Positions 4,713 through 20,032 of a DNA stretch of 39,054 bases are shown piece after piece. The DNA comes from Phycisphaerales bacterium (GTDB taxonomy: Bacteria; Planctomycetota; Phycisphaerae; Phycisphaerales; SM1A02). The notes beneath the pieces were generated by a model. The model saw only the letters and a list, made by a program, of their open reading frames with translations. It ran no database searches and was not told the origin of the DNA. The DNA is taken from contig SIAA01000017.1 in the NCBI GenBank assembly GCA_009692045.1, positions 1 to 39,054 of the forward strand. Direction: 5' to 3'. Within the stretch, counting starts at the first letter, position 1; every line of letters starts with the position of its first letter. Both the position numbers and the translations under genes were made by a program.

Positions 4713-5867
4713 TTACGGAGCCGCGAGCGGTGCGAGGAAGCAGCCAATCGCGGCAGTGGTGCGTGGCTCGGGAGTTTCACCTCTGCTGATGGCGTCGAGA
4801 GTGTCACGCAGGTCGTTACTAGTGGGAGCAGGCTCACGCTGGCCAATCTTGCGGTACAGATCATTGATGCGGCCGCGGTAGATGGTCTGGTTGCCAGCTC
4901 CGAGGACGAGGACTTCCGGGGTCACGGTAACGCCAAATCGCTTGGCCAGTTCCTGAGAGGGATCGAGCACTAATGGGGTGGGGATGGAAAACTTCTTGCC
5001 GTGCACTGCCGCCTTCTCGGCCGTCACGGCGGCATCGGGATAGGCCGAGTAAAACTTTATGGCGCCGCCGGGGAAGCGCTCGATGATGCGCTTGATTTCA
5101 GGTTGAAGGGTGTTGGCTATCGGGCAATCGGTGTTGATGAAAAAGATCACGAGGGTCTTGGTGGCAGGATCCGCCCACGGGTCGGTACTGCGGGTCGTGC
5201 CATCCTCGATCACCGGCAACGAGAGGCCCGGTGCTGGAGCTGGTGCCGGAACTGGTGCTGGAGCTGGTGCCGGAACTGGTGCTGGAGCTGGTGCTGGAAC
5301 TGGTGCTGGAACTGGTGCCACAGTGCCCGCAGGGTGCACAAAGACCTCTGCCGCATCAATGACCAGCAGACCTCCAGCGGAGACATCCCTGACCGCGCCC
5401 TTCACGGTAATCATGCTGCCTGTGGCCAACCCATGGACGCCGCTGGCGCCGGTCGCAAGCGGTTTGCCTGCAGAGTCCACAAACTCCACAGTTGCCATCT
5501 TGGCAATAAGCGACTTGCGTTCTTCGCAGCAAAAGTCCCAGGGTGTGGGGCAACGATCTCCAGAAATCTCACTGCACATACTCAGAGAGAGATCAGCGAT
5601 GGTGAATACCGCGCGCCCATTGACAAATGGTTTCTTCGACCCGCCGATGCGGCCAGCCATCACAACAACATCGCCTTTCTTGGCATCTCGTTTGACATCA
5701 ACGACACTCTTGGCGCCGGCGATGTCCGCCGCTACAAAGAGCGAATCCGGAATGGTGGCGTCTGCTGCAGCCGCGTTCAGCGGCAGCGTGCCCGTGACCA
5801 TGAGTATCGCTGCGAGGCACCCCGCCCAGGCGCGGGTGGCGGTTGATGAGAAGGGGCTGGCGGTCAT
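4713..5867 (-). CDS. Exported redoxin with N-terminal Cys-rich domain and Pro-Ala linker
   Basis: With the ATG at 5867 the protein is 384 residues with a signal peptide (MTASPFSSTATRAWAGCLAA..., cleavage near NAAAADA); a GTG at 5897 would add ten residues. Domains: residues 40-180 form a small beta-rich module containing CPTPWDFCCE (about 106-115), which could be OB-like; residues 182-213 are a (Pro-Ala) linker; residues 235-384 are thioredoxin-like, with LVIFFINTDCPIANTL at the active-site position and a cis-Pro segment (FGVTVTPEVLVL). The active site is Cys-Pro-Ile-Ala, so the second Cys of a CXXC is missing; a later Cys near the C-terminus (AAIGCFL) could serve instead. It probably handles thiols or senses redox state in the periplasm. 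It lies 51 bases after the ABC permease gene on the same strand. Confidence 0.8.
   Translation of the reverse strand: MTASPFSSTATRAWAGCLAAILMVTGTLPLNAAAADATIPDSLFVAADIAGAKSVVDVKRDAKKGDVVVMAGRIGGSKKPFVNGRAVFTIADLSLSMCSEISGDRCPTPWDFCCEERKSLIAKMATVEFVDSAGKPLATGASGVHGLATGSMITVKGAVRDVSAGGLLVIDAAEVFVHPAGTVAPVPAPVPAPAPAPVPAPAPAPVPAPAPAPGLSLPVIEDGTTRSTDPWADPATKTLVIFFINTDCPIANTLQPEIKRIIERFPGGAIKFYSAYPDAAVTAEKAAVHGKKFSIPTPLVLDPSQELAKRFGVTVTPEVLVLGAGNQTIYRGRINDLYRKIGQREPAPTSNDLRDTLDAISRGETPEPRTTAAIGCFLAPLAAP
5230..5319. repeat. 12-bp minisatellite encoding the Pro-Ala linker
   Basis: Seven and a half tandem 12-nt units alternating GGTGCTGGAGCT, GGTGCCGGAACT and GGTGCTGGAACT on the plus strand. On the coding (minus) strand they encode the PAPAPV-type linker of the redoxin. 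Near-identical codons rather than synonymous variety suggest recent expansion by slippage or unequal crossing over, so unit number may vary between strains. Confidence 0.9.
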
Positions 5868-5918
5868 TGATCGGAAGAGTATTGATGAAGTGAGCACGGT
5901 GTTCCTTATGACTTGGTT

Positions 5919-7094
5919 TCAATCGGCTTTGAGGGACTGGGGAAGGTCGAGGCGGAGGCAACGAATGGAGGGAAGAATGGCTCCGCCCAGCCCGAGCAGC
6001 AGGCCGGACGCGAGCCCGCAGGTCAGGGCGAAAGTGTCGACGCTGAGGCCGAATGTCCCCATGGAGAACTCGACATGGGCATGGCGCAGCAGCAGGATGC
6101 TGGCGGCGCTGGCAAACAACGCCCCGCTCATGGAAGTGAGCAGTGATTCCTGAATGATGCTCACCACGATGGCCGTGCGCGAGAATCCGAGAACCTGCAA
6201 CATGCCCAGCTCACGAATGCGGCTGGCAAAGGTGGCATACATGGTGTTGAGGCCGCCGATGAGTCCTCCGATGCCCACGAGCGCCGCGCTGATGACAGCC
6301 ATGACTTGGACGGGTCGAAAGAACTGGGCGAGGGCTGCGTAGTAGTCGGTCTCGCGAACGGCGGACAGCTCCAGATCAAATCGCTGCTGTGCGAAGGCGC
6401 TTACATCGTCGAACTGAGCCTGATCCAGTGATAGCACCACGGTGGAAATGGTTTCGCGCTGCGCCAGAGTGAGCAGATCCGAAATGGGCATCCACACCTC
6501 GCCGTCCATCACAGTTCCAGGTGCTCGCAGTCCGCCAACCACAGAGAAAGGGTGATGATCGATCTTGATGACCGACGGGAGAGAAGGATCGATGTTCAAA
6601 CGGCGAGCGGCAGTTGCTCCAAGCAGGACTTCGTTCGATCCCGACTCGGGCATGCGCCCCCAGGCGATTCGCACTTGTGGATGAACTAGGAATGCCACTG
6701 GGGTGATGCCTCGTATCACGCCCAGGTCATGGGAGGTCAGATCGTCGGTGGTATCGCCAGTACTTTTCCCCGTTAGAGGAAATGCCGCATGGATTTCCGG
6801 TGAGGCGAATGAACCCCCCAGAAGTGTGCGCAGCCCATCGATGCTGGCAACCGCCTCCGATGCTGCGCCCTGGGGAATCTCGCTCCGCTCAATGCTCTCC
6901 TCACTACCGGCGCCAATCAGCAACACATTGTTGTCGCTGGCACTCTGGCGCAGGCCTGAGTCCATGCCGCGTACAAATGAGATGCCGCTGATGACGAGAA
7001 GCACAACCAGCGCACACCCTGAGAGAGAGATCGCCAGTCGAATCGGAGCGCGTCCCATGTTGCGCGTGGCATAGGTGAAGGGAATCAGTTTCAT
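5919..7094 (-). CDS. ABC transporter permease (FtsX/MacB type), second of pair
   Basis: 391 residues with the four-helix FtsX-like layout: one N-terminal helix (about 18-40), a large extracytoplasmic domain (about 41-255), then three helices (about 264-285, 315-337, 355-377). The conserved cytoplasmic coupling motif between helices 2 and 3 is present (SRIRELGMLQVLGFSR). Such permeases do not translocate through a channel; they drive periplasmic conformational change to load substrate to an adaptor and TolC-like duct. It overlaps the upstream permease gene by 4 bases (ATGA), so translation is coupled. The two permeases differ in sequence and probably form a heterodimer, as in LolCE. Confidence 0.88.
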   Translation of the reverse strand: MKLIPFTYATRNMGRAPIRLAISLSGCALVVLLVISGISFVRGMDSGLRQSASDNNVLLIGAGSEESIERSEIPQGAASEAVASIDGLRTLLGGSFASPEIHAAFPLTGKSTGDTTDDLTSHDLGVIRGITPVAFLVHPQVRIAWGRMPESGSNEVLLGATAARRLNIDPSLPSVIKIDHHPFSVVGGLRAPGTVMDGEVWMPISDLLTLAQRETISTVVLSLDQAQFDDVSAFAQQRFDLELSAVRETDYYAALAQFFRPVQVMAVISAALVGIGGLIGGLNTMYATFASRIRELGMLQVLGFSRTAIVVSIIQESLLTSMSGALFASAASILLLRHAHVEFSMGTFGLSVDTFALTCGLASGLLLGLGGAILPSIRCLRLDLPQSLKAD

Positions 7095-8257
7095 GCGGCT
7101 CCCGTTCGGAAGCTAGCGGTGATTTCCCGGCGCGCCGCTGAAATAGCAGGCAGGACTCCGGCGACTAGCCCCAAGACAATCGCCAGCGCCAGACCGAATG
7201 CCGCAAGCATCGGTCGGGCACTGACATCGATGGAAACGCCCTCCATCGTGAAGGAAATGGCGCTGAAACTGACGGCGGCAAAGGCGGCAACCGCCCCGAC
7301 GATTCCCCCGGCAACTGCCAGCGCGAGTGATTCGGTGACAACTAGTGACCCGATCAGGGCACCGGGGAATCCCAGGGTCTGCAGGATGGCGTGATCGCGC
7401 ACGCGGTCGCGCACCGAGAGGGCGATGGCATTGGCTATGAGGGCAAACACCGCAATGAGACTGGCGTAACCGATCCAGCCCGCGAACGACACCAGCGTGA
7501 CGATGTCATGCGCGGCACGCGCGACAAAGGCGGTCTGGCCGCGAGTCGCGGTGGGAAACTGATCGCGCGCGAACAACTTGTCAATGCTGCTTGCTACCGC
7601 TTCGAGCCGCTGCGGGTCGTCAACCTTTACGACAAACTGCGTCACAATGCCGCCGCTGCCACCGCGCTTGGCAGACTCCTGCAAGAAGTTGAGATGAACA
7701 TAGGCGCTGTTGCGATCCTGAGCATCGTCAGAGGCGAAGATGCCGGCGATGTAAGCGGTCGCGCCCGCGGCCACCAACGGATCGCCCACCCTCAGGCCGC
7801 GCCTCTCGGCCAAGGCGCTGCCCACCAAGGCGGCGTCGCTGCGTCGATCCCATTCTTTGAAGCCTCCGGCGGTGATGTTCGAGTCTCCCAGTACATCCTG
7901 CAGCGCTGACGAGTCCGGCACCCCGCGAAAGGTCACAACATCCAGACTGGCTCGGCAGTTGCTGACGACGATTTTCATGGGAATCACATCGCGCACCCCG
8001 GGGAGCCTCTCAATGCGGTCGTCGTATGACTGCGGTAACTGGCTGGTGAATGGGCAAAAACGATTTTTGCGATAGACGATGAGAGTGGTCTCCCCGGCGC
8101 CCGCGCTCGTTGCCTGATCAACACCAGCACGCATCGACTCCACAAAGGTAAACAGGAACACGCCCGTGGCAATGCCAGCGATAGTGAGCCCGGTTCGCAT
8201 GGGACGGCGCACCATGTTGCGCCATACGAAAGGAAGGCTGCGGCTGAGGGCGCTCAT
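7091..8257 (-). CDS. ABC transporter permease (FtsX/MacB type), first of pair
   Basis: 388 residues with the same FtsX topology as its downstream partner: N-terminal helix about 20-40, periplasmic domain, three C-terminal helices, and the coupling motif SVRDRVRDHAILQTLGF. The periplasmic domain includes YRKNRFCPFTSQLP near residue 70. It overlaps the ATPase gene by 4 bases upstream and the second permease by 4 bases downstream. It is clearly a part of the tripartite exporter operon. Substrate unknown; MacB relatives export macrolides, peptides, siderophores or lipoproteins. Confidence 0.88.
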   Translation of the reverse strand: MSALSRSLPFVWRNMVRRPMRTGLTIAGIATGVFLFTFVESMRAGVDQATSAGAGETTLIVYRKNRFCPFTSQLPQSYDDRIERLPGVRDVIPMKIVVSNCRASLDVVTFRGVPDSSALQDVLGDSNITAGGFKEWDRRSDAALVGSALAERRGLRVGDPLVAAGATAYIAGIFASDDAQDRNSAYVHLNFLQESAKRGGSGGIVTQFVVKVDDPQRLEAVASSIDKLFARDQFPTATRGQTAFVARAAHDIVTLVSFAGWIGYASLIAVFALIANAIALSVRDRVRDHAILQTLGFPGALIGSLVVTESLALAVAGGIVGAVAAFAAVSFSAISFTMEGVSIDVSARPMLAAFGLALAIVLGLVAGVLPAISAARREITASFRTGAA

Positions 8258-9003
8258 CGTGATGCCCCCGTCTGGGACGCCGCGGTGGACTCGCGTCTCT
8301 CTGGCGAACCCATCCTCTCGCTAGCGCTCTCGGCATCAAGAATCCGCCCCTTGTCGAGACGAATGAGGCGCGAGGCGAAGGCGGCAGTCTTGGCATCGTG
8401 GGTCACCATTACCGTTGTCTGGCCGCGCTCGCGATTGAATCGGCAAAGGAGTTCCATGACCTGCTGGGCCGACTCACGATCAAGATCTCCGGTGGGCTCA
8501 TCGGCCAACAGCAGGCTGGGATTGGTCACGATGGCGCGAGCGATGGCCACGCGCTGCTCCTGGCCACCCGAGAGTTGCCGAGGGTAGTGCTCATACCGAT
8601 CAGAAAGCCCAACCGTCTCCAGGGCCTCAGCCACGCGCGAATGCCGCTGGGCACGAGTCATCGCTTGCAGGAGCAGCGGGAGCTCCACATTCTCATAGGC
8701 GGTGAGGACGGGAATCAAATTGTAGAGCTGAAAGATGTACCCCACGCTGGTTCCGCGCCATGCTGCCAGTGCGGCACGCGAGAGAGACACAATGTCATGG
8801 CCATCAACGATGAGGGAACCCTCCGTTGGTCGATCGATCCCAGCCAATAGGTTGAGCAGCGTTGTCTTACCCGAACCGGATGGACCCATCAGGGCGACGA
8901 AAGAGCCGCGCTCGATGGTGAGATTGACATGATCCAGCGTGCGAACAACCTGCTCTTCACGGTGATAGTCCTTCACCAGATTGCAACACTCAATGATTTT
9001 CAT
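8254..9003 (-). CDS. ABC transporter ATP-binding protein (MacB/LolD family)
   Basis: 249 residues, the usual length for a LolD/MacB-type nucleotide-binding subunit. Walker A is GPSGSGKTT (about residue 40), the signature is LSGGQEQRVAIARAI, Walker B is LLLADEPTGDLD, and the switch His follows in VMVTHD. The FQLYNLIPVLTAYENVELP segment is typical of this subfamily. It energises the two FtsX-type permeases encoded next. Its start overlaps the end of the adaptor gene by 14 bases. Confidence 0.93.
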   Translation of the reverse strand: MKIIECCNLVKDYHREEQVVRTLDHVNLTIERGSFVALMGPSGSGKTTLLNLLAGIDRPTEGSLIVDGHDIVSLSRAALAAWRGTSVGYIFQLYNLIPVLTAYENVELPLLLQAMTRAQRHSRVAEALETVGLSDRYEHYPRQLSGGQEQRVAIARAIVTNPSLLLADEPTGDLDRESAQQVMELLCRFNRERGQTTVMVTHDAKTAAFASRLIRLDKGRILDAESASERMGSPERRESTAASQTGASR

Positions 9004-10282
9004 GGGATCCCTCTGTTTCTGAGGAGAGCGAGCGTGGGGGCCGCTGCGCGTTGGCGTTTATTCGAACTCTCTCTCCATCCTTCGGAGCGTCCGTGGACAG
9101 GTCGATCAGCTGATCGCCGGGTCTGAGCCCTTCGACCACCTCGACCCACCCATCGACCTCGTTGCGGCCGAGTGTCAAGGCGCGGGTACGGGCGATTCCG
9201 GTATCCCCCTCTAGGTCCTCGACAACGAGAGCCTCGGCACTGGCACCTTCGCCGCGCAGATGAGTCCGAGGCGCGAAGAATGTGTAGCGACCGGAGGGGG
9301 CCCCGCTTGCGCTCTCTGCTGCCGCAGATTCACCCTCTGCAGTCGTAGGTGCTCCGATGGTTCCGGTGAAGATACGGACGCGCCCGAGCATCTCTGGTTT
9401 GAGAGTCGCTTCGGGGTCCACGATCAAGACCTTGACCTGAACCGTGTTCTTCGCGATGTCAGCGAAGTGCACCAGTCGCTGCACCTTGCCCGCAAACACT
9501 CTGTTGGGCAGAGCATCAAACACGATCTCCGCCGGCTGCCCCACGCCCAGAAGTGCCGCGTCAACGAGTGGAACATCAGTTCGCATCTGGAGGTGCTTGG
9601 GGTCGTATAAGTGCAAGACATGCCTGCCATGCTCTCCCTCGGCACCGAGGAAGGCGCCTGGCGAGGCAAGGCGAGTCATCACCACTCCCGACACCGGAGC
9701 AAGAATCTTGGTGCGAGCCAAGGTCAGATCTGCCATTTCCAACTCGACCCCAGCCTGGAGTCGTTTCCCCTGGGCTGCCTTCAGTTCAGTCTCAAGTGTG
9801 TTCACCTCGCCCTGCGCTACCGCGCCGTGGGCAACGAGCGGGCGCTTGCGCAGCAGCAACTGTTCGATCCGCTCAAACTCGGCGATGGCAACCTGCTCCA
9901 TCGCCTCGGCGCGGCGGCGAGCGATTACAAACTCATCGTCAAACATGGTGGCAACAACATCACCAGCCTGAACCGCCTCGCCTTCGAGCACCTTTATCTC
10001 ACGAACGACTCCCTCAATAAGGGAGGTGGCGTAGATGGGGTAGGGATCAGGTTCCACCCAGCCGGGTGCCTGCACCGTCACTCCACTGGTGATGCGTCCG
10101 TCCTTGGGGGTGCTCGCTCGAAGGGCGACCGGTGTGACACTTACCGAGTGCGCGGGTGTGAGGGAGAGCCACCCGGTGTAGAGCAGCAAGCCTACGGAGC
10201 CGAGGAGAATCGCCGCCGGTAGCGCAAGTCGGATGAAGAGGCGCGACTTCGGAGCAGCGATTGTTGAGAGGTTGGAATCCAT
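8990..10282 (-). CDS. HlyD/MacA-type periplasmic adaptor of ABC exporter
   Basis: 430 residues with one N-terminal membrane anchor (about 14-38) and the normal adaptor order: lipoyl half-motif (ATSLIEGVVREIKVLEGEAVQAGDVVATM), an alpha-hairpin of about 80 residues, the second lipoyl half (TKILAPVSGVVMTRLASPG), then a beta-barrel domain and a membrane-proximal domain. It bridges the inner-membrane ABC complex and the TolC-like factor. The start codon shares one base with the upstream stop (TAATG). An Ala/Glu/Ser-rich stretch near residues 315-330 is an unusual insertion before the final domain. Confidence 0.9.
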   Translation of the reverse strand: MDSNLSTIAAPKSRLFIRLALPAAILLGSVGLLLYTGWLSLTPAHSVSVTPVALRASTPKDGRITSGVTVQAPGWVEPDPYPIYATSLIEGVVREIKVLEGEAVQAGDVVATMFDDEFVIARRRAEAMEQVAIAEFERIEQLLLRKRPLVAHGAVAQGEVNTLETELKAAQGKRLQAGVELEMADLTLARTKILAPVSGVVMTRLASPGAFLGAEGEHGRHVLHLYDPKHLQMRTDVPLVDAALLGVGQPAEIVFDALPNRVFAGKVQRLVHFADIAKNTVQVKVLIVDPEATLKPEMLGRVRIFTGTIGAPTTAEGESAAAESASGAPSGRYTFFAPRTHLRGEGASAEALVVEDLEGDTGIARTRALTLGRNEVDGWVEVVEGLRPGDQLIDLSTDAPKDGERVRINANAQRPPRSLSSETEGSHENH

Positions 10283-11652
10283 TATGGTGTGCCTTGGGGG
10301 TTACCGATTACGCGTGAAAGTTCTATTTGAGCCAGCGCAACCTGCAGGCGCGCGTTCGTACCGTCCATGCGGGCGTCGTTGGCGGCGTGCTCGGCAGAGA
10401 GGTAGTGGCTTCGTGGAGTTTCACCTGCTTCCGCTGACCTCAAGGCGATTAGCGCAGTTGACTCGGCTGCTCCTAGTGCCAGTGTCTGCAGGGCGTGAAG
10501 TCTCAGTTGGGCCGCTCGGAGCTGGGAGTGGGCCTTATGCGCCGCAGCAACGGCGAGTTGCAGAATCTGATCAGCATCGATGCGCGCGGCTTGGAAGCGC
10601 GCCGCGGCGGCGGCGATGCGGGCGGATCCGTCATCAAAGATGGGGACCTCTGCAATCAAACCCACCGAGATCGCATCATCACCCTCCATGTCTTGCTCAT
10701 AGCCGGACGAAAGATCGAAGCGGCTGATGCGACTGCCGCGCGCGCTCGCTAACTGACTCTGCGCTGAGGCCGCCATTGCCTGCGCCGCCTGCACATCGAG
10801 TCTCCACTCTGAGACCGCGTGAACCAAGTCCTCATCCCCATCCATTGCCGTTGTCCACGCCAGGTCCTCGGCATCGCGCCACAGTGAGGTGTCCCAATCG
10901 CTCTCCACAGCGCGCCAGTTGTGGGATTGCCCCGAGCGGCCTAGCAGTGCCATCAAGTCGGCCTGGTCGCTACGAAGCCTTTCCTGCGCATCGGCGCGCC
11001 GCATCATCGCCTCAGCGATTTGCAGCCGCATTGTCTCGAGCTCGGCGCGCGGTGCCTCGCCGGCATCAACAGCGACCTGAGCGACCGCGACTAGTTGCGA
11101 TGCAATCAATTCGTCGGCGATAGAGAGTGTGACGAGGTGCTGCGCCATCACAACTCGCATTTGCAGAGAGCGCGCTGCCGCGGCGGTATCAACCGCCAAC
11201 GACCCCAGCTCCAGTAGTGCCGAGCGAAGCCGCTGTGATGCGGCACCCATGGCATCTTCGCGCTGGGCAATGAACGCCAGGTTCTGAGAGATCATGGCTA
11301 CTAGCGGAGCCACACCCATTCCCAGCGGAAACCCAGTCGCCATTTCGATCATTGGATTGGGAGCAAGTGAAGACTGTGTCAGTTCGCTCTGAGCGATATG
11401 CACCTCTTCGATAGCACGGCGAAGAGGTCGATTGTTGGCTAGAGCACACTGCACTGCAGTGAGGGCGCCAAGATCAGAAGTGCCGTCCCAGGCACTGCTC
11501 ATCTGATCGAAGGGCAACGACCAGTCTGGTGTCGATCCAACCCGAGTAGCGATGTCATCGTGAAGGGATGAAACCGTGGCGATGTCGGGTGAGTTGCAGG
11601 CGGCGAGAGCAAACACCGCTAGCGATGCCGCGAAAGCTGTTTTGTTTGTCAT
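10282..11652 (-). CDS. TolC-like outer membrane efflux lipoprotein (first system)
   Basis: 456 residues. The N-terminus is a lipoprotein signal peptide with lipobox LAAC (Cys about 19), so the protein should be acylated and outer-membrane anchored like CusC/OprM. The rest is Ala-, Gln- and Leu-rich helix in two similar halves, as in the TolC/OEP family, with NPMIEMATGFPLG and EVPIFDDGSARIAAAAARFQAARI as typical landmarks. A fair Shine-Dalgarno (AAGGA) precedes the ATG at 11652. It is followed without gap by the adaptor gene. Confidence 0.87.
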   Translation of the reverse strand: MTNKTAFAASLAVFALAACNSPDIATVSSLHDDIATRVGSTPDWSLPFDQMSSAWDGTSDLGALTAVQCALANNRPLRRAIEEVHIAQSELTQSSLAPNPMIEMATGFPLGMGVAPLVAMISQNLAFIAQREDAMGAASQRLRSALLELGSLAVDTAAAARSLQMRVVMAQHLVTLSIADELIASQLVAVAQVAVDAGEAPRAELETMRLQIAEAMMRRADAQERLRSDQADLMALLGRSGQSHNWRAVESDWDTSLWRDAEDLAWTTAMDGDEDLVHAVSEWRLDVQAAQAMAASAQSQLASARGSRISRFDLSSGYEQDMEGDDAISVGLIAEVPIFDDGSARIAAAAARFQAARIDADQILQLAVAAAHKAHSQLRAAQLRLHALQTLALGAAESTALIALRSAEAGETPRSHYLSAEHAANDARMDGTNARLQVALAQIELSRVIGNPQGTP

Positions 11653-11711
11653 ATGAAACCAAGTCCTTCAGTTGGTGCAGATGCACGGAGTGCGATGCAC
11701 AGAACTCGCGA

Positions 11712-11726
11712 TCACCACAGTGGTGA
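11712..11726. promoter_or_regulatory. Perfect palindrome in the leader of the efflux operon
   Basis: TCACCACAGTGGTGA (7-bp arms, 1-nt centre) lies between the Cys-rich gene and the TolC-like gene, about 60 bases before the latter. The short centre fits a dimeric repressor site better than a hairpin. No regulator gene lies nearby, so this is a candidate only. Confidence 0.35.
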
Positions 11727-11756
11727 CGCGCGTGAGCAACGATCAGGATTAGGTTG

Positions 11757-12188
11757 TCAGATTAGGAACACGCCAAGTGTGGCGCGTAGGCGCAAGGCAT
11801 ACGGCATTCCCGGCGGAGACTCGGGAGGCTGGTAGACGCGGGCAGCATCGGGGGCCGCAGGCGCGCTGGCAAACATGGCCGCAGGGGAGGCGGTGTTCCA
11901 GGCGATCACACCCACGGTATCAACGGGAATGTAGAGGCTCAGAACTGGTGGGGGCGCCTTGGCGCAGCAAGCACCGCAACCATTCGAGCCCGGGCAACAG
12001 GGAGCAGACTCGGACTCCTCATGCCACGGCTCGCTGTCATCTACCGGCGTTTGCGCATCGTCACAAGAGCCGCAACAACTGGTGGCACTTTCGCGTGGCG
12101 AATCAGCCAAGATGAACTTGACCTGACAGCAGCACACCTGTACCCAAAGAGCAAGTGCAATGCGGAGGATGACTGAGCGACCTATCAC
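11757..12188 (-). CDS. Cys-rich exported small protein, function unknown
   Basis: 143 residues from a GTG start. An N-terminal hydrophobic stretch (RSVILRIALALWVQVCCC) acts as signal or anchor. Residues 36-80 hold clustered cysteines: SCCGSCDD, then APCCPGSNGCGACC, separated by an acidic His-containing stretch (DDSEPWHEESES). The second half is Pro/Ala-rich with no Cys. I do not recognise the family. Paired cysteines with acidic residues and His suggest metal binding; this is inference. It is first in the minus-strand order of the ABC exporter operon, 104 bases before the TolC-like gene, so it may sense or deliver the exported substrate. Confidence 0.6.
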   Translation of the reverse strand: MIGRSVILRIALALWVQVCCCQVKFILADSPRESATSCCGSCDDAQTPVDDSEPWHEESESAPCCPGSNGCGACCAKAPPPVLSLYIPVDTVGVIAWNTASPAAMFASAPAAPDAARVYQPPESPPGMPYALRLRATLGVFLI

Positions 12189-12195
12189 GCATCAA

Positions 12196-12201
12196 ATAAT
12201 A
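12196..12201 (-). promoter_or_regulatory. Putative -10 box of the Cys-rich gene/efflux operon (TATTAT)
   Basis: TATTAT on the minus strand ends 7 nt before the GTG at 12188. No Shine-Dalgarno is present. It would give a leaderless or near-leaderless transcript of the exporter operon. Confidence 0.45.
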
Positions 12202-12280
12202 GGGACTCTTTGACAAAATGAAAGTCGAATCAGCGAAGTAGCTCGATAATGATCAGCGTTATACGGCAGCGCCGCACCTC

Positions 12281-12286
12281 TACACT
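12281..12286 (+). promoter_or_regulatory. Putative -10 box of the mannosidase operon (TACACT)
   Basis: TACACT sits exactly 6 nt before the ATG at 12293, with no Shine-Dalgarno between. The same TACACT-N6-ATG layout occurs before the gene at 36923, and TACATT-N6-ATG before malic enzyme. Confidence 0.5.
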
Positions 12287-12292
12287 CAGCGC

Positions 12293-15200
12293 ATGTACCG
12301 CGAGACCCCCTCAAGTGCTACATCTAGTGCGCGCGACTTGGAGAGCATTGTCAAGGCAGCGAAGAATCCGGAGCGTCATGTCCTGAATGTTTGCGCCTAC
12401 CGCGCCCCGCAGGGGAAGGGCGCGCATGTGTTGCCGGGGATGAAGCCAGCCCAAGTAATGAAGCAGGTCTTTGAAGAGGTTGCGCTCGGCATGCACTGGG
12501 GGCCCGTATGGTCCACGGTGTGGTTTCGATTGAGTGGAACCGTCCCTCAGGAGTGGAAGGGTTGTACTGTTGCTCTGCGTTTCTCCAGCGGCACTGAAGC
12601 GACGCTGTGGCGAGATGGAGTTCCCTTTCATGGATTTGATCCCTATAGAGACACCGCGGTTCTCTTTAGTAAAGCACAGGGCGGCGAAGTGGTTGACCTG
12701 CTGATTGAAGCAGATTGCAACCTGCCTTTGGGAGCGACCACATTCTGGTGGGATCAACCAGAGGTTCGCGCCCGCTGGTCGGAGGAAACTCCTGGTCGGC
12801 TCGAAAGCGCCGAGCTGATCCTGTTGGACGAGGATGCGTGGCGACAGGTAGAGGTGCTGGAAGTTGCGCGAAAGTCTCTGCTGCTAGAGCGTGCAGCAGA
12901 TGACGCGGCTGGGGCCGCCCTGCGAGGCCTTATAGATGATCAGACCGGCGAGCGTGGCCGGGCGCTGCAGCGTGCGGCGCGGGAGAGCCGCGCATTTGGG
13001 GGCGATGCAGATGCGTCAGCGGGCAGGACCCCGCCGAACACAGCGGCGAACACAGCCGTCTCACCCAGTGGGCCGGGCGGTCAGTGCACGGCTGTCGGAC
13101 ACGCTCACATCGATACCGCCTGGTTGTGGACCCTTGAGTGCACGCGTCGCAAGTGCCTGCGAACCTTTGCCAATGTTCTGCGCCTGATGGAGCGGTTTGA
13201 TTCGTTCCGCTTCCTTTGCAGTCAGGCGCAGCAGTACGCATTCGTCGAGGCGGACAGCCCCCCGTTGTTTGCTCAAATTCGTGCCAGAGTTGCAGAAGGT
13301 CGCTGGGAACCCGGGGGCGGCATGTGGATTGAACCGGACTGCACCGCGCCCTCAGGCGAGAGTTTCATCCGCCAGGTGCTGCACGGTGAACGGTATTGGC
13401 GGGAGCACTTTGGAGAGATTGTCCGTCAGGATTTTTTATATCTGCCCGACACATTTGGGTTCCCCGCCAGTCTGCCCCAGATCGCCCTGCTGTGCGGACT
13501 GCGCACATTCATTACCAACAAGATGAGTTGGTGCGATACCAATCGCTTCCCGTTGGTGAACTTCATGTGGCGCGGCATTGATGGCAGCGAGATCGCCACT
13601 CACTTCACTCCCGGCCACAACTACAACTCCAGCATCGAGCCAGCCGACATGAGGTTGGGCCAGACCAACCTGCTGAAGCAAGAGAGTGGTTTCAAGGGAG
13701 CCTGGCTGCAACCATTTGGATATGGAGATGGCGGCGGTGGCCCGACACAGGAGCAGTGCCTGCGGGCCGAGGTGTACTCCGCGTTCTTCGATACGCCACC
13801 GACGGTTCAGCGCAGCGTGCGCGACTTTTGCGCCGAGCTCGAGCTGGAGCGAGCGGCCGGCAATCTCCCGGTCTGGGACGGCGAGCTGTATCTGGAGTGC
13901 CACCGAGGTACCTACACGAGTCAAGCCTGGATCAAGCGTGCCAATGCCGAGGCGGAATCAGCTCTGAGGCGCATCGAATTGCTGGCGGTATTGGCACCGA
14001 AGCAGACGGCGGAGAATGAACAGGCGTGGCGTGCCCAGATGGATACGGCATGGAAGTGCGTCCTTCTGCATCAGTTTCACGACATTCTGCCCGGCTCATC
14101 CATCAAAGAGGTGTATGACGATGCTCGGATCGCGTTCGCAGGGCTGAACACCCTCTTGGAGCAGATTGAAACGGAGTCGTGTGCCCGAGTGTGCGCCGGG
14201 GCAGCGGAGGCTCAATCATGCTGCATGGTTCTCAATCCGAGCTCGGTCTCGCGCAGTGGCATCGTTGACACCTCTAGCGGTTTGATCTTCGCCCGTGATG
14301 TGCCTGGAGCGAGCGCGATTGCGGTGCCGCGCACCCGAGTAGTGCAGTCACCATCGATCCGGTTGGAAACTAGGGAGATGACTAACGGCCTCATCCACAT
14401 TCAGGTGGATTCGCTCGGACGACTCGCGCGCGTATCTCGCGCGGGAGCGGGGGATCTGTCTGACGCTTCGGTACTACCACTGAATCAACTGATGCTCTAC
14501 GAAGATAGGCCGCGAAGCTGGGAGGCATGGGAGATCGACCGCGACTATGTGACTCACGGTACCGCCGTGATCTCTCCCTGCGATATGAAGTTCGAGATCA
14601 TTGATGATCTGCTGGCGCGCTGCACGGTCAAGCGCTCTCTTGGTGATCGAAGCCACATCGAGCAGTGTTATGAGTTAGAGGCTGGTGCACCCTGGGTGCG
14701 CATCCGCACTCGTGTCGAGTGGCAGGAGGATCGCCGCCTGCTGCGAGCTCTATTCCCCACCAGCATCAGAGCGCGTCGAGCCACATTCGGCATTCAGTTC
14801 GGCTCAATCGAGCGGTCGACCTATGACAACACCTCTTGGGAGCAAGCGCAGTTTGAGGTACCCGGTCATGGCTGGATGGATCTAGCCCAACCCGGGAATG
14901 GCTTGGCAGTTCTTGATGACGGCACTAAGTTTGGGCGAAGTGTCAAGCACGGGGTTCTCGGGCTGTCGCTGCTGCGCGCCCCCCAGTTCCCCGACCCGAC
15001 TGCTGATCGAGGTACGCACTCCTTCAGTTATGGATTGATGCCGCACGGCGGTGATTGGCGCAGCGGGGGAGTGGCGGATGAGGCCGAGTGCTTCGCGCAA
15101 CCTCTCAGAGCGATCGGCAGTGCAAGAGCTGGCGCCCGCGCCCAACTGTTTACCCTCCGTGGTAGCGCATCGGTGCAGGTGAGTGCGGTGAAGCCGGCCG

Positions 15201-15454
15201 AAGATGGGCGCGGAGTGATCGTGCGCCTAGTGGAGCGAGTGGGTGCGCGCAGTGAAGCCGTCATTGATTGGACTGGGAGTGTCCGCAGCGTCGAGGCAGT
15301 CGATGCCCTGGAACGCCCGTTTACCGAGCCCTCTCAAGCAGGGGTTACAGTCACGCGCCAAGCGGCGCCCGTTCTGCACCACGATGGGGCAACATGTCGC
15401 ACGAGTCTTACGCTGCGCCCCTTTCAGATTGCCACGATTAGAGTGTTGCCGTGA
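12293..15454 (+). CDS. Alpha-mannosidase, glycoside hydrolase family 38
   Basis: 1053 residues, typical for the long GH38 class. It removes terminal alpha-linked mannose with retention of configuration using a bound divalent metal. Visible landmarks: the metal-binding GHAHIDTAWLW (His272, Asp274), EPGGGMWIEPD, the nucleophile in LYLPDTFGFP (Asp386), and HQFHDILPGSSI (His593/596, metal ligand region). The N-terminal 200 residues are the beta-sandwich seen in ER-type/bacterial GH38 enzymes. Residues 215-262 are a low-complexity Ala/Arg/Thr/Pro insertion just before the catalytic domain. There is no signal peptide, so it should act in the cytoplasm. It is first in a three-gene unit with a symporter and a beta-mannosidase. 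Confidence 0.95.
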   Translation: MYRETPSSATSSARDLESIVKAAKNPERHVLNVCAYRAPQGKGAHVLPGMKPAQVMKQVFEEVALGMHWGPVWSTVWFRLSGTVPQEWKGCTVALRFSSGTEATLWRDGVPFHGFDPYRDTAVLFSKAQGGEVVDLLIEADCNLPLGATTFWWDQPEVRARWSEETPGRLESAELILLDEDAWRQVEVLEVARKSLLLERAADDAAGAALRGLIDDQTGERGRALQRAARESRAFGGDADASAGRTPPNTAANTAVSPSGPGGQCTAVGHAHIDTAWLWTLECTRRKCLRTFANVLRLMERFDSFRFLCSQAQQYAFVEADSPPLFAQIRARVAEGRWEPGGGMWIEPDCTAPSGESFIRQVLHGERYWREHFGEIVRQDFLYLPDTFGFPASLPQIALLCGLRTFITNKMSWCDTNRFPLVNFMWRGIDGSEIATHFTPGHNYNSSIEPADMRLGQTNLLKQESGFKGAWLQPFGYGDGGGGPTQEQCLRAEVYSAFFDTPPTVQRSVRDFCAELELERAAGNLPVWDGELYLECHRGTYTSQAWIKRANAEAESALRRIELLAVLAPKQTAENEQAWRAQMDTAWKCVLLHQFHDILPGSSIKEVYDDARIAFAGLNTLLEQIETESCARVCAGAAEAQSCCMVLNPSSVSRSGIVDTSSGLIFARDVPGASAIAVPRTRVVQSPSIRLETREMTNGLIHIQVDSLGRLARVSRAGAGDLSDASVLPLNQLMLYEDRPRSWEAWEIDRDYVTHGTAVISPCDMKFEIIDDLLARCTVKRSLGDRSHIEQCYELEAGAPWVRIRTRVEWQEDRRLLRALFPTSIRARRATFGIQFGSIERSTYDNTSWEQAQFEVPGHGWMDLAQPGNGLAVLDDGTKFGRSVKHGVLGLSLLRAPQFPDPTADRGTHSFSYGLMPHGGDWRSGGVADEAECFAQPLRAIGSARAGARAQLFTLRGSASVQVSAVKPAEDGRGVIVRLVERVGARSEAVIDWTGSVRSVEAVDALERPFTEPSQAGVTVTRQAAPVLHHDGATCRTSLTLRPFQIATIRVLP

Positions 15455-15491
15455 GTGAAGCGAGCGCCGCTGACATCGAGAGGGAGTGCCC

Positions 15492-17507
15492 ATGAATATG
15501 GTCACGATCGACTGGGTCATTGTTCTTACCTTCCTAGCTGTGCTCTTTGTCGCAGGGCACGCCACCAGTTCTCACGCCCGCACAGTCTCGGGCTTCCTAG
15601 CGGCAAACCGCTGTGCCGGCCGCTACCTCGTAACAGTTGCCTACAACATGGCGCAGGTGGGAGTGATCACGCTGGTGTGGTACTTCCAAGTCGGTTACGA
15701 CGTGGGATTCACCCAAATGTGGTGGGGGTACCTCGAGGGGCCCGCCATGATCTTTCTTGCCATCAGCGGATGGGTGATCTATCGCTTTCGTCAAACTCGT
15801 GCCCTCACGCTGGCTCAGTTCTTCGAAGCCCGTTACTCCAAGCGATTCCGCATATTTTCCGGAATGGTCGCCTTCGGCAGCGGCCTGCTCAACTATGGAA
15901 TCTTCCCCGGCGTAACCGCGCGGTTCTTCATTGCGGTGTGCGGCTTTCCCGAGGCCGTCTCGGTCGCGGGCCTCTCCCTTCCTACCTTTCCCCTAGTGAT
16001 GGCGATCCTGTTGATGATCGCCCTCTACCTAGTGTTCGCGGGCGGGCAGATCGCCGTGATGGTGACGGACTTTCTCCAGGGAGTGTTCTGTAACGGGGTG
16101 TTCATCTTTCTCTGTTTCTGGTTCATGTGCACCATTCCCTGGCCAGCCATGCAGGGCGCCATGCTTTCCATGCCTGAGGGCACCTCCTTCGTAAATCCGC
16201 TGGGACTGTCGGGGGAGAAAAATTTCGACATCTTCTATTGGCTCATCAGTGCCTTCATCATCCTCTATAGCGCCCGCGCTTGGCAGGGTGACTCTGGTTA
16301 CAACGCCGCGCCCCTAAACGCCCACGAAGCGCGCATGGCCCAGCTGCTTTCGGGCTGGCGCTGGCGGGTCTTGATGTTGGTGACGATCATCGTCCCCCTG
16401 GCAGTGCGAACTTTCCTGACTCAGCCGGAGTTCGCTCCGCAGGCCGAGGCGGTGCATCAGGCCATTGCTCAGACTGCCGGTGGCAACGAGGCTCTGGCAG
16501 CAGAGATGCGCACGCCGCTAGCACTGGCGGTGATGTTGCCTGCGGGTCTGCTCGGCTTGCTGGTGGCGGCCATGCTGGGCGCAGCAGTCAGTACTGACGA
16601 AACCTATCTGCACTCGTGGGGCAGCATCTTTGTGCAAGATGTGATTCTGCCGCTGCGAGGTAAGCCGCTGCCACCTCGGCAGCACTTGCTGCTTCTGAAG
16701 ATTTCCATTTTCTTCGTAGCGGTGTTCGCCTTCTGCTTCAGCCTGTGGTTTGAGTTGGGCGAGTACATCGCTATGTTTGGAGCGCTCACCGCGGGAATAT
16801 TCGTGGGCGGAGCGGGAGCGGCGATCATCGGTGGGCTGTACTGGCGCCGTGGCAGTTTGCAGGCGGCGTGGGCGACGATGGCAGTGGGAATCACCATCAG
16901 CGTGTGGGGCATCACCATGATGAATCTCCCCAATCGAGTTCTGGACTCGATGGAGAGCGGTGCATTCAACTTTGTCCGCGAGCATTGCTTGTGGCTGCGG
17001 GGGAACATGACGGGAATGACCATTAGTTTCGTGGCGATGGCGGCATCGCTCGTCACCTACTTCCTCGTCAGCGTGCTTGGACCTCGCACCGACTTCGACC
17101 TCGACAAGTTGCTGCACCGCAAGGCTGCCGCGCGTGATACTGCTGAACCCGAGGGGCGCCGCTCCTGGCTGGAGCACTTGGGATTCGATCGTGAGTTCAA
17201 GGGAAGTGATCGGATCATCGCTGCCGTCACCGTGGCGTGGCCTCTCTTCTGGACCATCGTTCTGTTAGCGGTGACACCCTATCTGTGGTGGCGTCAGTCC
17301 CAGAATGATCCGGTCAGCGATCTGGCGTGGGCCGACTACTGGCAGGTGTGGACCTGGGGCATTCTCTGGGTGAGTGTAGGAGTATGGGTGTGGTGGACCA
17401 TTGGCGGCTTCCGCGATCTGTGGCGATTGTTCCAGAGACTCAGAGCCTATAGAGATGATGCGACAGATGACGGCTCAGTGACGCATGAGCCGAAGGGTTC
17501 CCCCTAG
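15492..17507 (+). CDS. Sodium:solute symporter (SSS family)
   Basis: About 671 residues with 13-15 predicted hydrophobic helices; the family fold is the LeuT-like inverted repeat. The N-terminal segment (IDWVIVLTFLAVLFVAGH followed by SGFLAANRCAGRYLVTVAYNMAQVG) and the AAMLGAAVSTDETYLHSWGSIFVQD segment are typical of SSS carriers. The ATG at 15492 is preferred over the GTG at 15486 because AGGGAG lies 5 nt upstream. It begins 37 bases after the GH38 stop and its stop overlaps the start of the GH2 gene (TAGTG). The context suggests uptake of a mannose-containing sugar; the family itself includes sugar, sialate, amino acid and vitamin carriers, so the substrate is inference. Confidence 0.9.
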   Translation: MNMVTIDWVIVLTFLAVLFVAGHATSSHARTVSGFLAANRCAGRYLVTVAYNMAQVGVITLVWYFQVGYDVGFTQMWWGYLEGPAMIFLAISGWVIYRFRQTRALTLAQFFEARYSKRFRIFSGMVAFGSGLLNYGIFPGVTARFFIAVCGFPEAVSVAGLSLPTFPLVMAILLMIALYLVFAGGQIAVMVTDFLQGVFCNGVFIFLCFWFMCTIPWPAMQGAMLSMPEGTSFVNPLGLSGEKNFDIFYWLISAFIILYSARAWQGDSGYNAAPLNAHEARMAQLLSGWRWRVLMLVTIIVPLAVRTFLTQPEFAPQAEAVHQAIAQTAGGNEALAAEMRTPLALAVMLPAGLLGLLVAAMLGAAVSTDETYLHSWGSIFVQDVILPLRGKPLPPRQHLLLLKISIFFVAVFAFCFSLWFELGEYIAMFGALTAGIFVGGAGAAIIGGLYWRRGSLQAAWATMAVGITISVWGITMMNLPNRVLDSMESGAFNFVREHCLWLRGNMTGMTISFVAMAASLVTYFLVSVLGPRTDFDLDKLLHRKAAARDTAEPEGRRSWLEHLGFDREFKGSDRIIAAVTVAWPLFWTIVLLAVTPYLWWRQSQNDPVSDLAWADYWQVWTWGILWVSVGVWVWWTIGGFRDLWRLFQRLRAYRDDATDDGSVTHEPKGSP

Positions 17508-20032
17508 TGTTGGTGGCGCCGTGGACCGTGCAGTCAGCCGACGGCCTAGTTGGTCCGCTGCCAGCAACTCTGCCTTCGTGTGTTCATCAAACTCTGATGC
17601 AGGCGGGAGAGATTCGTGATCCCAACGCCGCTGGTGGCGAAGCGGGGCAACTGTGGGTGGGACGAACTGGATGGGTCTACCGCGCCAGCGTGCAACTGAC
17701 GAAGCAGATGCTTGAGACCGAGTGGTTGGAGCTGGTGTTTGCGTCTATCGACACCGCGGCAACAGTGTTCATAGGCGGCATCGAAGTGGGAAGTGTGTGC
17801 AATCAGTTTTACCCGCATCGATTTGCCGTCCCCCAGTCGGTGCGCGCGCGCGCTTTGCTTCAGGCCAAGTTGGGCATCCCGATTGAAGTTCACTGTCGCG
17901 CACCGGTCGCAGAGGTGGAGTCACTTTCGAGCAGGTTGGGAGCACGACCTGTGAATGGCGACTGGACTCCCTATGTCTTCTTGCGCAAGGCCGCCTGCAA
18001 CTTCGGATGGGATTGGGCCCCGCGCGTCGCCACTTGCGGATTGGGAGAGGTGTCGATCCAGTGGGGAAAATCTTCCCGGATCGAGTCGGTCCGTCCCCAT
18101 GTGACAGAATGCGATCGAGCGCACGCGATCATTGAGGTTCATGTGGATGTTGGTCATGCAGGCGAGGAGGCGATGACCATCACCGCCCGCTTGGAGTCAG
18201 CGGATGGTGTGTTGGTTGCGTCGTCGAGTCATCTCGCGCCACCAGGTCGGCGCGCTTCCCACTGTCTGAGGCTCTCGGTAAGCAACCCGCAACTATGGTG
18301 GCCACGCGGCATGGGCTTGCAACCGCTGTATAGGCTCACTGTGCAACTCGAAGTCGAGGGTCGCCACGGCGATTCGTGGCGTGGGAGAGTGGGGATCCGC
18401 ACAGTGAAACTGAATCAGACTCCGGATGCCCGCGGAGCTGGCTTTGCCCTCGAGGTGAACGGGGAGAGAGTGTTTTGTCGCGGCGCGAACTGGGTTCCCT
18501 CGGGACTGTTCGCGGGCTACGGCGATGCAGCAGTGGTGCGGCACTCTCTCGAGTCAGCAGCTGAAGTCGGTGTAAACATGCTGCGAGTGTGGGGCGGAGG
18601 GGTTTACGAATCTCGCGCCTTCTACGACACTTGTGATGAGCTGGGGGTGATGGTCTGGCAGGACTTCATGTTTGCCTGCGCGACCTATTCAGAGCAGGAG
18701 CATTTCCCAAAGGAGATTGAAAAAGAGGCTAGGTACCAAGTCGCACGACTCTGTCGTCATCCCAGCATTGTGCTGTGGTGTGGGGGCAACGAAAATATTT
18801 GGGCGTGGCACAGTTGGGGGTTCGGATCGAGACTCACGCCTGGGCAGTCATGGGGAAAGAAGTATTGGATGGAGATGCTTCCGGCCGTTGTCAGCGAGCT
18901 CGATCCGGCGCGCCCCTACTGGAACGACAGCCCATATAGCGGGACACTCGAACTGTTTCCCAATGATCCTGATCGCGGAGACTGCCATGCGTGGGAGCAT
19001 CCGGTTGGAGCCGAGGGAGGTGCACCGCCGCGTTTTGTGAGCGAGTTCGGAAGGCAGGCGTACCCGAACCTGCAAACCCTCCGTGAAGCCGTGGGCGAGA
19101 AACACCTCCAGTCTCACTCACCAGAGATGCAGTCGAGGCAGAAGGGGACTGGCGGCGATGCGCGACTCATCGATCCTGTTCTCGGGGCAGAGTTTCCTGA
19201 TGCCGGCAGTTTTGCCGAGCGCGTCTGGCAGACTCAATGGTTACAGGCGCGCGCGGTGCGGCGCTACATCGTGTGGTTGCGAGCCAACGCGCCCGAGTCG
19301 AGCGGGGCCCTGGTGTGGCAGTGGAATGATTCTTGGGCTGGGCTTGGGTTCGGGGCTCTCGATAGCACCCAGCGCCGCAAGCCGATGTGGTACGCGATGA
19401 GAGAGGCGTGCGCCCCCCGAGCCCTCGGTCTCTGCATGCGCAATGGAGGTGAAGCCGAACACGCCCATTCAGGCAGCCTCTGTCTTGAAGCCATCAACGA
19501 CACCGGTGATGAGTGGATCGCCTCCGCCACCTTGTCGCGGATCACCTGTGATGGGTCGGTGCGCGGTGCAGTGACGGTGCCGTTTCGAGTTCCTCCTCGC
19601 GGCTGCGCCACGATCGCTCACATCGGGGAAGTGCTCCCTGGCGCTGACGGTAGTGACGAATTCGTGGTGGCAGAGTGCGCCTCGCTGCGCACGACGCGCA
19701 TGCTCGCGAGTCCGCGAACTGCGGTGGCGTTGATTGCTGAGTCGTGCGGCGGAGTAGATCGGGCCAATCAGCCGCGCACCACTGAAGTGCGCAGGGGCAG
19801 CAGCGCCATCGCGCGGGTGAACTTGATGAGTGAACTCCCCGGCGTACAGCGCTGGATGATCGAGGCAGTCACTCCTCTTCTTGATCTCTGGCTGGAGCCC
19901 CTGGGTGACTGGATCGAGGTGGAGCCAAACCTCATCAGTCTGCTGCCGGGCGAATCGCAGGTACTTGTGGTTCGGCTACGGGGGGGTGCCGCGGGGGTGC
20001 GTCTGTGGACCCCGCTGGGAGAGGTGAAATAG
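17507..20032 (+). CDS. Beta-mannosidase, glycoside hydrolase family 2
   Basis: 841 residues, the usual length of GH2 beta-mannosidases. The N-terminal jelly-roll (FASIDTAATVFIGGIEVG; WDWAPRVATCGLG) and immunoglobulin-like domain precede the TIM barrel. Acid/base Glu429 is in WCGGNENIWAW and nucleophile Glu513 in RFVSEFGRQAYP. The PFRGANWVPS-equivalent motif reads CRGANWVPSG and MLRVWGGGVYE is diagnostic of the mannosidase branch. There is no signal peptide, so it is cytoplasmic. The start is GTG at 17507, sharing one base with the symporter stop. With GH38 it could strip both alpha- and beta-mannosyl residues, for example from an imported Man-alpha-Man-beta-GlcNAc type glycan. Confidence 0.95.
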   Translation: MLVAPWTVQSADGLVGPLPATLPSCVHQTLMQAGEIRDPNAAGGEAGQLWVGRTGWVYRASVQLTKQMLETEWLELVFASIDTAATVFIGGIEVGSVCNQFYPHRFAVPQSVRARALLQAKLGIPIEVHCRAPVAEVESLSSRLGARPVNGDWTPYVFLRKAACNFGWDWAPRVATCGLGEVSIQWGKSSRIESVRPHVTECDRAHAIIEVHVDVGHAGEEAMTITARLESADGVLVASSSHLAPPGRRASHCLRLSVSNPQLWWPRGMGLQPLYRLTVQLEVEGRHGDSWRGRVGIRTVKLNQTPDARGAGFALEVNGERVFCRGANWVPSGLFAGYGDAAVVRHSLESAAEVGVNMLRVWGGGVYESRAFYDTCDELGVMVWQDFMFACATYSEQEHFPKEIEKEARYQVARLCRHPSIVLWCGGNENIWAWHSWGFGSRLTPGQSWGKKYWMEMLPAVVSELDPARPYWNDSPYSGTLELFPNDPDRGDCHAWEHPVGAEGGAPPRFVSEFGRQAYPNLQTLREAVGEKHLQSHSPEMQSRQKGTGGDARLIDPVLGAEFPDAGSFAERVWQTQWLQARAVRRYIVWLRANAPESSGALVWQWNDSWAGLGFGALDSTQRRKPMWYAMREACAPRALGLCMRNGGEAEHAHSGSLCLEAINDTGDEWIASATLSRITCDGSVRGAVTVPFRVPPRGCATIAHIGEVLPGADGSDEFVVAECASLRTTRMLASPRTAVALIAESCGGVDRANQPRTTEVRRGSSAIARVNLMSELPGVQRWMIEAVTPLLDLWLEPLGDWIEVEPNLISLLPGESQVLVVRLRGGAAGVRLWTPLGEVK

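Follow-up and report, generated by a model that had tools for sequence, protein, structure and literature searches.

The locus and its genes

The window analysed here is the whole stretch of 39,054 nt from a Phycisphaerales bacterium (contig C53 of a 2.17-Mb assembly). On its minus strand, a small Cys-rich gene, hereafter the head gene, stands in front of the genes of an export machine. The features are as follows.

11757..12188, minus strand: head gene, an open frame with a GTG start, encoding a 143-aa Cys-rich protein
11745..11759, minus strand: 5' arm of a predicted RNA stem, with the head stop codon UGA (11757-11759), AACC (11752-11755) and the anti-Shine-Dalgarno (anti-SD) sequence UCCU (11745-11748)
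11654..11667, minus strand: 3' arm of the same stem, immediately before the OEP start codon, with the SD-like AGGA (11664-11667) and GGUU (11657-11660)
10282..11652, minus strand: TolC/OEP-type outer-membrane factor (PF02321) with a lipoprotein-type N-terminus
8990..10282, minus strand: HlyD_D23 (CusB/HlyD-type) periplasmic adaptor, above the cut-off of TIGR01730
8254..9003, minus strand: LolD/MacB-type ABC ATPase on a separate polypeptide (Pfam, NCBIfam)
7091..8257, minus strand: FtsX permease 1 with a MacB_PCD periplasmic domain, above the Pfam cut-offs
8054..8056 and 7955..7957, minus strand: codons of the invariant C68 and C101 of permease 1
5919..7094, minus strand: FtsX permease 2 with a MacB_PCD periplasmic domain, above the Pfam cut-offs, with no pair of the C68/C101 type
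4713..5897, minus strand: last gene, an OB domain fused to an AhpC-TSA/thioredoxin-like domain (Pfam)
5337..5768, minus strand: the OB-fold domain with the motif C-x-x-P-W-D-x-C-C, residues 44-187 of the last gene

The sequence-only reading of this DNA had placed a Cys-rich exported protein before a TolC-lipoprotein, an adaptor, an ATPase and two permeases. Pfam matches bear out this gene order, with all genes on the minus strand. The pump is a LolCDE/MacB-type tripartite ABC unit, and no RND gene was found among the Pfam-scanned operon proteins. In NCBIfam, the ATPase (8254-9003) falls short of the MacB equivalog cut-off. The outer-membrane factor carries a lipobox-like Cys, C19, which is kept in 15/15 rows of its alignment.

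The head protein

The head frame is real and its translation holds the motifs that had been read in it, SCCGSCDD and CCPGSNGCGACC. The protein has 143 residues, 11 of them Cys, and its CxxC motifs are CGSC and CGAC. Judged by sequence, its N-terminus is a hydrophobic stretch. Pro-Pro (PP) occurs at residues 121-122 and 125-126, with 21 and 17 residues, respectively, between it and the C-terminus, and 45 residues intervene between the last Cys and PP. We propose that the gene encodes a nascent-chain metal sensor.

Database models did not recognise this protein: it has no family match in Pfam at E 1 or in NCBIfam at E 0.01, and positions 11000-12500 have no Rfam match at E 1. A single-sequence search with the head protein returned few clear relatives, the better of which adjoin adaptor matches.

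Conservation of the head position

Operons related to that of the window were collected either by their adaptor (38 operons, the window and 37 others) or by permease 1 (80 loci, partly overlapping with the first set). Upstream of the 37 adaptor-selected operons, wherever the contig extends far enough, lies a same-strand Cys-rich ORF of about 120-190 aa. A rule was then written for the head, requiring 85-220 aa, at least six Cys with CC or CxxC, a hydrophobic N-terminus, PP in the last 35 residues, the same strand and a position directly upstream of the operon. Because the family had already been seen when the rule was written, large ORFs served as a control that gives its false-positive rate. 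In the adaptor-selected set, window included, the rule holds for 33 of 34 testable operons (four lacked enough upstream sequence and were left out) vs 0/203 control large ORFs. In the permease-selected set it holds for 56/61 vs 1/319 controls, 19 loci being untestable; removal of the 10 testable loci common to both sets leaves 46/51. A profile built from 15 heads and run against six-frame translations of the window and the loci gave 37 rows at E <=0.01, all of them operon heads, a number that counts the 15 seeds and several places present under two locus names.

The rule fails in one adaptor-selected locus (L084) and in five permease-selected ones (L144, L177, L182, L183 and L184). A Cys-rich ORF is visible by eye at the head position in L084, L144, L177 and L184. 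At L182 and L183 the place of the head is taken by a different, larger gene that ends in a Cys motif, CPI...FCCPPC in L182 and CPIS...FCCPPC in L183. The L183 gene, the one of this pair that was scanned, has weak YtkA/TRASH-like matches below the cut-off.

Anatomy of the head family

Twenty-eight heads were aligned, and eight further heads were left out. The invariant positions are M1, two Cys and one C-terminal Pro, and PP is nearly invariant. All 28 aligned heads carry Cys clusters, the positions of Cys varying in the first clusters, and the mature part is barely conserved, with a mean column identity of 21%. The tail after PP measures 1-30 residues. According to the sequence-only reading, its proposal would suffer if homologues were absent or randomly placed, or if their Cys clusters were not conserved; homologues were found beside the same ABC genes with their clusters retained, so neither objection applies.

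The distance between Cys and PP is a further regularity. In the permease-selected set, 41/56 heads have 40-55 residues between the last Cys and PP (median 46), counting only Cys at least 25 residues before PP, a criterion set with the family already in view and lacking a separate null. Under a simpler rule that accepts any Cys before PP, 25/56 heads fall within 40-55 residues, where shuffled sequences gave a mean of 0.7 and a maximum of 4; this rule catches only 25 because many heads have a late Cys.

Two designs can be distinguished among the 55 heads with a measured junction. Thirteen end no more than four residues from PP, often as LRPPRx, and none of the 13 is followed by OEP. The other 42 carry a longer tail, and OEP is the next gene in 40 of them.

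A probable metal link through relatives of the head

A scan of the phylum with the head profile matched 34 of 392 genomes at 35 places, including genomes whose heads had built the profile. The search is insensitive: genomes G019, G040 and G050 gave no match, though heads are seen there by eye (L057, L060 and L086). Twenty of the 35 neighbourhoods were examined, and they contained the same ABC operon (8), RND-type heavy-metal efflux genes (6), a multicopper oxidase (2), a YHS-like gene (1) or an unclear context (3). In five of the eight ABC operons the genes are reordered as head, permease 2, OB, adaptor, ATPase and permease 1.

Pfam finds ACR_tran in five of the head-led RND loci, and all four of those scanned with NCBIfam exceed the CusA/CzcA cut-off. 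L127 encodes HMBD and HlyD_D23, a CusB-like adaptor; only the adaptor and OEP are visible before the contig ends. Cu-oxidase domains occur in head-led loci L128 and L139, and the YHS match of L135 is below the cut-off. At the RND and oxidase loci the head profile matches weakly, with E values of 1e-10 to 2e-5 per genome.

Near the ABC operon itself, a P1B-ATPase or RND gene was found in only 2/80 permease-selected loci, 40 of which span at least 15 kb. In L069, L081, L083 and L140, the head comes right after the end of a long frame that resembles a metal P-type ATPase. The frames of L069 and L140, which were scanned with NCBIfam, exceed the heavy-metal and Cd-type cut-offs and stop just short of the Cu-type one. 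L140 also has an RND gene further upstream, below the CusA/CzcA cut-off. Elsewhere in the window genome there are three heavy-metal P-type ATPases above the cut-off and three RND genes below the CusA/CzcA cut-off. The metal link is thus guilt by association, drawn from gene neighbourhoods. The metal- or thiol-linked function suggested earlier finds its metal half supported by the relatives at RND pumps, a CusB-like/HMBD adaptor and multicopper oxidases.

These neighbourhoods also bear on the idea that the ABC unit secretes the head, which would then be the precursor of a Cys-rich peptide. MacB/LolD-type ATPases include peptide exporters, and among NCBIfam models a darobactin exporter ranks second for the window ATPase, below that model's cut-off. 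Yet no maturation or protease gene was recognised among the Pfam-scanned operon proteins, the head family also precedes RND pumps and oxidases, and Cys positions are inconstant in the first clusters. We regard this possibility as highly improbable.

A cysteine pair in permease 1

Permease 1 carries C68 (in NRFCPFTS) and C101 (in SNCRASLD), both inside the stretch matched by MacB_PCD and both kept in 46/46 rows (the window, the 37 adaptor-selected loci and eight from the head-profile search). Their conservation in another alignment (A3) is biased, as its loci had been collected with patterns containing these very Cys. The pair is absent from permease 2 and from six other FtsX stretches of the same genome; one of these six, L231, carries a Cys that aligns with C101 and none at C68. 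The window holds a further FtsX-type permease domain on the plus strand (31649-31996), also without the pair.

A structural model of permease 1 has a mean pLDDT of 88.6. Its top Foldseek matches are LolCDE chains, a non-canonical ABC transporter of Streptococcus and MacB, with HrtBA lower. HrtBA exports heme, and this fold can therefore serve a metal compound. C68 and C101 could form a disulfide or a metal site, and their invariance is consistent with the metal link.

The last gene of the operon

At its end the operon conserves an OB-fold domain (mean pLDDT 91.7) that carries a C-x6-CC motif. C116 and C123 are present in 45/45 rows, C124 in 44/45 and a lipobox-like Cys in 34/45. Fold searches ranked generic OB folds best, namely OBody, tRNA synthetases, Ten1, CcmE (Z 8.9) and YgiW (Z 8.5), with scores too even to name a relative. 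The domain has no NCBIfam match at E 1e-20, its gene has only redoxin-type Pfam matches, and its relatives in L062, L071 and L076 have no Pfam match at E 0.01. The OB domain with C-x-x-PWD-x-CC, found in the window and 49 related loci, is possibly an undescribed domain family. In relatives it mostly stands alone, though some have two copies in tandem or a second type of domain behind it, for example cytochrome c' in L077.

The redoxin domain was considered as a conserved partner of the operon and rejected, only the N-terminal OB domain of the last gene being conserved. The OB-redoxin fusion of the window was seen in none of the relatives examined. Of the other last-gene proteins, 41/44 have at most 235 aa, with starts chosen by script; three are longer, L076 (284 aa), L077 (511 aa) and L088 (587 aa), and scans of L076 and L077 found no AhpC-TSA. 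The earlier statement that the operon ends in a redoxin gene is accordingly right for the window and does not extend to its relatives. With the redoxin domain a fusion in the window and most other last genes short, the argument from redoxin to a thiol-linked function falls away.

A leader that senses the thiol/disulfide state or the export status, coupled to a pump that removes oxidised peptides or lipids, would account for the fusion in the window. It would also fit a disulfide between the two permease 1 Cys, and RAPP-type arrest peptides are described in PMC12992588 as preceding thioredoxin-domain genes too. The lack of conservation of the redoxin domain within the operon family and the place of head relatives before CusA/CzcA pumps and multicopper oxidases make such sensing quite unlikely.

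A predicted RNA stem at the head junction

The head and OEP genes of the window are separated by 104 nt. The sequence-only reading had not anticipated an RNA structure here. In the predicted structure, AGGA pairs with UCCU and GGUU with AACC, from the UGA stop onward, in eight pairs with probabilities of 0.92-1.0. Taken alone, this junction has a folding z of -1.32, which is not significant; other frames give -0.42 to -1.86. With the frame applied to the whole family, its z is -0.93, equal to that of the window's own ABC-to-FtsX1 junction (-0.94).

The family gives a stronger signal. The junction between the head and the next gene has a mean folding z of -2.12 (n=55; 58% below -2), vs values near zero at the other junctions of the same operons: -0.13 for OEP-HlyD (n=39), 0.05 for HlyD-ABC (n=56), -0.02 for ABC-FtsX1 (n=55), -0.07 for FtsX1-FtsX2 (n=55) and 0.34 for FtsX2-OB (n=52). 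The ribosome-binding site (RBS) has an accessibility of 0.27 at the head junction vs 0.35-0.52 at the others. Pairing of the next gene's RBS with the arm around the head stop codon is predicted in 40/52 loci vs 1-13/52 in 20 shuffled sets, at a mean probability over 0.4 and with 52 of the 55 junctions entered (gap of 25-140 nt). The loci are related, so p values at these junctions overstate independence.

Pair types vary between loci at equal anchor offsets, for example C-G, U-A and A-U at (0,-7). Offsets from an anchor were used since a MAFFT alignment of nine junctions was too gappy; the count is descriptive, as it uses pairs already predicted by folding in related loci.

The two head designs differ at this junction, the mean z being -2.56 for long-tail heads vs -0.70 for PP-ending heads (p 0.0009), of which 3/13 have a z below -2. 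The stem is weak on average in these 13, and PP-ending heads may therefore rely on another route, for example Rho. In heads with a tail, 11-30 residues separate PP from the end. A ribosome that pauses at PP would thus stop short of the stem, and the tail after PP would have to matter for its opening.

Comparison with known sensors

The closest parallels are two copper sensors that act in cis. According to PMC9973294, CutF of Rhodobacter capsulatus acts via an SD-masking stem-loop between cutF and cutO and is degraded after export. Like CutF and the CutF-like proteins of that paper, the head is a small, putatively exported protein with Cys motifs and PP near its C-terminus, encoded first in a candidate metal operon. 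It shares with CutF a short intergenic region with a stem masking the SD of the next gene, which in the window is predicted only and has a modest z. Against the CutF-like criteria as given there, the window head is shorter than 150 aa (143) and has a same-strand downstream gene within 1000 nt (104); unlike the proteins kept by that filter, its PP lies outside the last 15 residues. A further difference from CutF is that the genes behind the window head encode a MacB/LolCDE-type ABC pump; the words ABC transporter, MacB and FtsX are absent from the main text of PMC9973294.

CruR of Bordetella pertussis, a DUF2946 protein, has 45 residues between CXXC and RAPP, thus 47 to PP, and switches off an import operon by Rho-dependent termination (PMC9426467). 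The head likewise has a Cys motif about 45 residues before a C-terminal Pro-Pro, and several heads with no OEP behind them end in LRPPRx, recalling the RAPP end of CruR. The spacing in the head family spreads more widely than the one or two residues reported for DUF2946 in that source, which also mentions a few homologues in Planctomycetes. The window head has no match to DUF2946 (PF11162) at E 1 and stays below the Pfam threshold; weak matches were seen in 2/28 heads (best E 0.0025) and in 1/13 members (E 0.14, below the cut-off). The PP-ending design, with PP at the end and a long gap, resembles CruR, and the long-tail design, with the SD masked by a stem, resembles CutF.

Small proteins encoded upstream of metal-type genes are also represented by CopL (Xanthomonas/Stenotrophomonas) and CzcI (Cupriavidus), upstream of a copper oxidase and czcCBA, respectively. 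Both are thought to be regulatory, and CzcI is described as having no C-terminal Pro motif (PMC9973294). The CopL model NF033807 does not match the window head at E 0.01 or E 1 and matches 1/28 members at E 0.41.

By Pfam DUF2946 score and by the CutF filter on PP position, the head is not a member of either family. Its length, gap, Cys-to-PP spacing and predicted stem agree with CutF and CruR. By analogy, it most likely works as they do, as a nascent exported metal sensor.

The same features can be set against a stable protein of the periplasm, akin to a chaperone or a metallothionein, which would bind metal and deliver it to the adaptor and the outer-membrane factor, as CusF does for CusCBA. 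Cys clusters in 28/28 aligned heads and relatives that lead metal-type operons would be expected of such a protein. Three observations make it unlikely: the low identity of the mature part (21%), the SD-masking arm at the stop codon, which a chaperone would not need, and the degradation after export of CutF, which has the same layout (PMC9973294). The head looks more like a cis-acting leader read during its synthesis than like the metal-binding surface or export partner of the earlier proposal, to judge by the distance from its Cys to PP, the arm complementary to the SD at its stop codon and its very poorly conserved mature part.

Comparison with known pumps

With MacAB-TolC and LolCDE (type VII ABC systems), the window pump shares MacB_PCD/FtsX permeases, a LolD-like ATPase, a HlyD-type adaptor and a TolC-type factor. 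MacB has its ATPase and permease on one chain; the window pump, unlike these systems, combines a separate ATPase and two unequal permeases with an adaptor. The Cys pair of permease 1, the extra OB-domain protein and the metal-type leader also set it apart. A MacB-type machine takes its substrate from the periplasm, which suits a periplasmic metal sensor.

The tripartite layout, the CusB-type adaptor domain and the presence of the same leader family in planctomycete relatives are shared with CusCBA and CzcCBA, whereas the inner-membrane motor is an ABC unit and not an RND pump. Among the papers listed by literature searches, no title or opening of an abstract describes a MacB/FtsX-type ABC metal exporter with such a leader. 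New here are the class of pump that the leader would control, the Cys-marked permease, the OB-domain protein and the presence of two leader designs in one operon family.

Proposed mechanism

We consider that the head gene is a cis-acting, soft-metal-sensing leader that is read during its own synthesis and opens a stem to turn on the ABC exporter, with a probability of roughly 0.6. This reading starts from what was computed, namely a conserved operon, the pattern of Cys and PP, their spacing, a predicted stem and the invariant permease Cys. From these features we infer that the leader binds metal, that the ribosome pauses, in which direction regulation works and what the pump exports.

The leader would bind a soft metal ion while being translated and exported, most likely Cu(I), with Zn, Cd and Ag as alternatives. 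Its Cys clusters would already be outside the ribosome when the Pro-Pro stretch near the C-terminus and the hydrophobic tail are read. Bound metal would alter the dwell time of the ribosome near the head stop codon, and a ribosome at this place would open the stem in which the SD of the next gene is otherwise paired with the region of the stop codon. The open stem would permit translation of the outer-membrane factor, the adaptor, the ATPase, the two permeases and the OB-domain lipoprotein, and the resulting pump would clear the metal or a metal-thiol complex from the periplasm.

More tentatively, and at somewhat less than an even chance, the operon may represent a new class of tripartite metal exporter. 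In such a class, a LolCDE/MacB-type ABC unit with a permease Cys pair and an OB-domain lipoprotein would move a soft metal or metal-thiolate from the periplasm, and would be turned on by a metal sensor that acts as an exported nascent chain and has its stop codon inside an SD-masking stem. The sensor family would be common to ABC and RND pumps in the phylum. If true, MacB/LolCDE-type ABC machines, which are not known as metal transporters, would gain a metal-efflux branch, and nascent-chain copper sensing, represented by CruR in Bordetella and CutF in Rhodobacter, would extend to a planctomycete operon family with two designs. Particular residues and bases would then stand out as targets for mutation, and an operon of wide occurrence would have a function open to testing.

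Distribution and neighbourhood of the operon

In a one-genome-per-species collection, at least 563 stretches encode a relative of permease 1. Judged by the 80 named loci that permease 1 retrieved, operon relatives lie mainly in Planctomycetota; most locus titles read Phycisphaerales, Phycisphaerae or Planctomycetes/Planctomycetota, and a few read Sumerlaeota or other names. The operon also occurs at L177 and L181, titled Pseudomonadales and Proteobacteria, which may be mis-binned MAGs or cases of transfer.

On the far side of the window head lie divergent sugar genes on the plus strand (12293-20032), encoding a GH38 alpha-mannosidase, an SSF symporter and a GH2-type enzyme. GH38 adjoins the operon in L053, L062, L068, L079, L082 and L129 as well.
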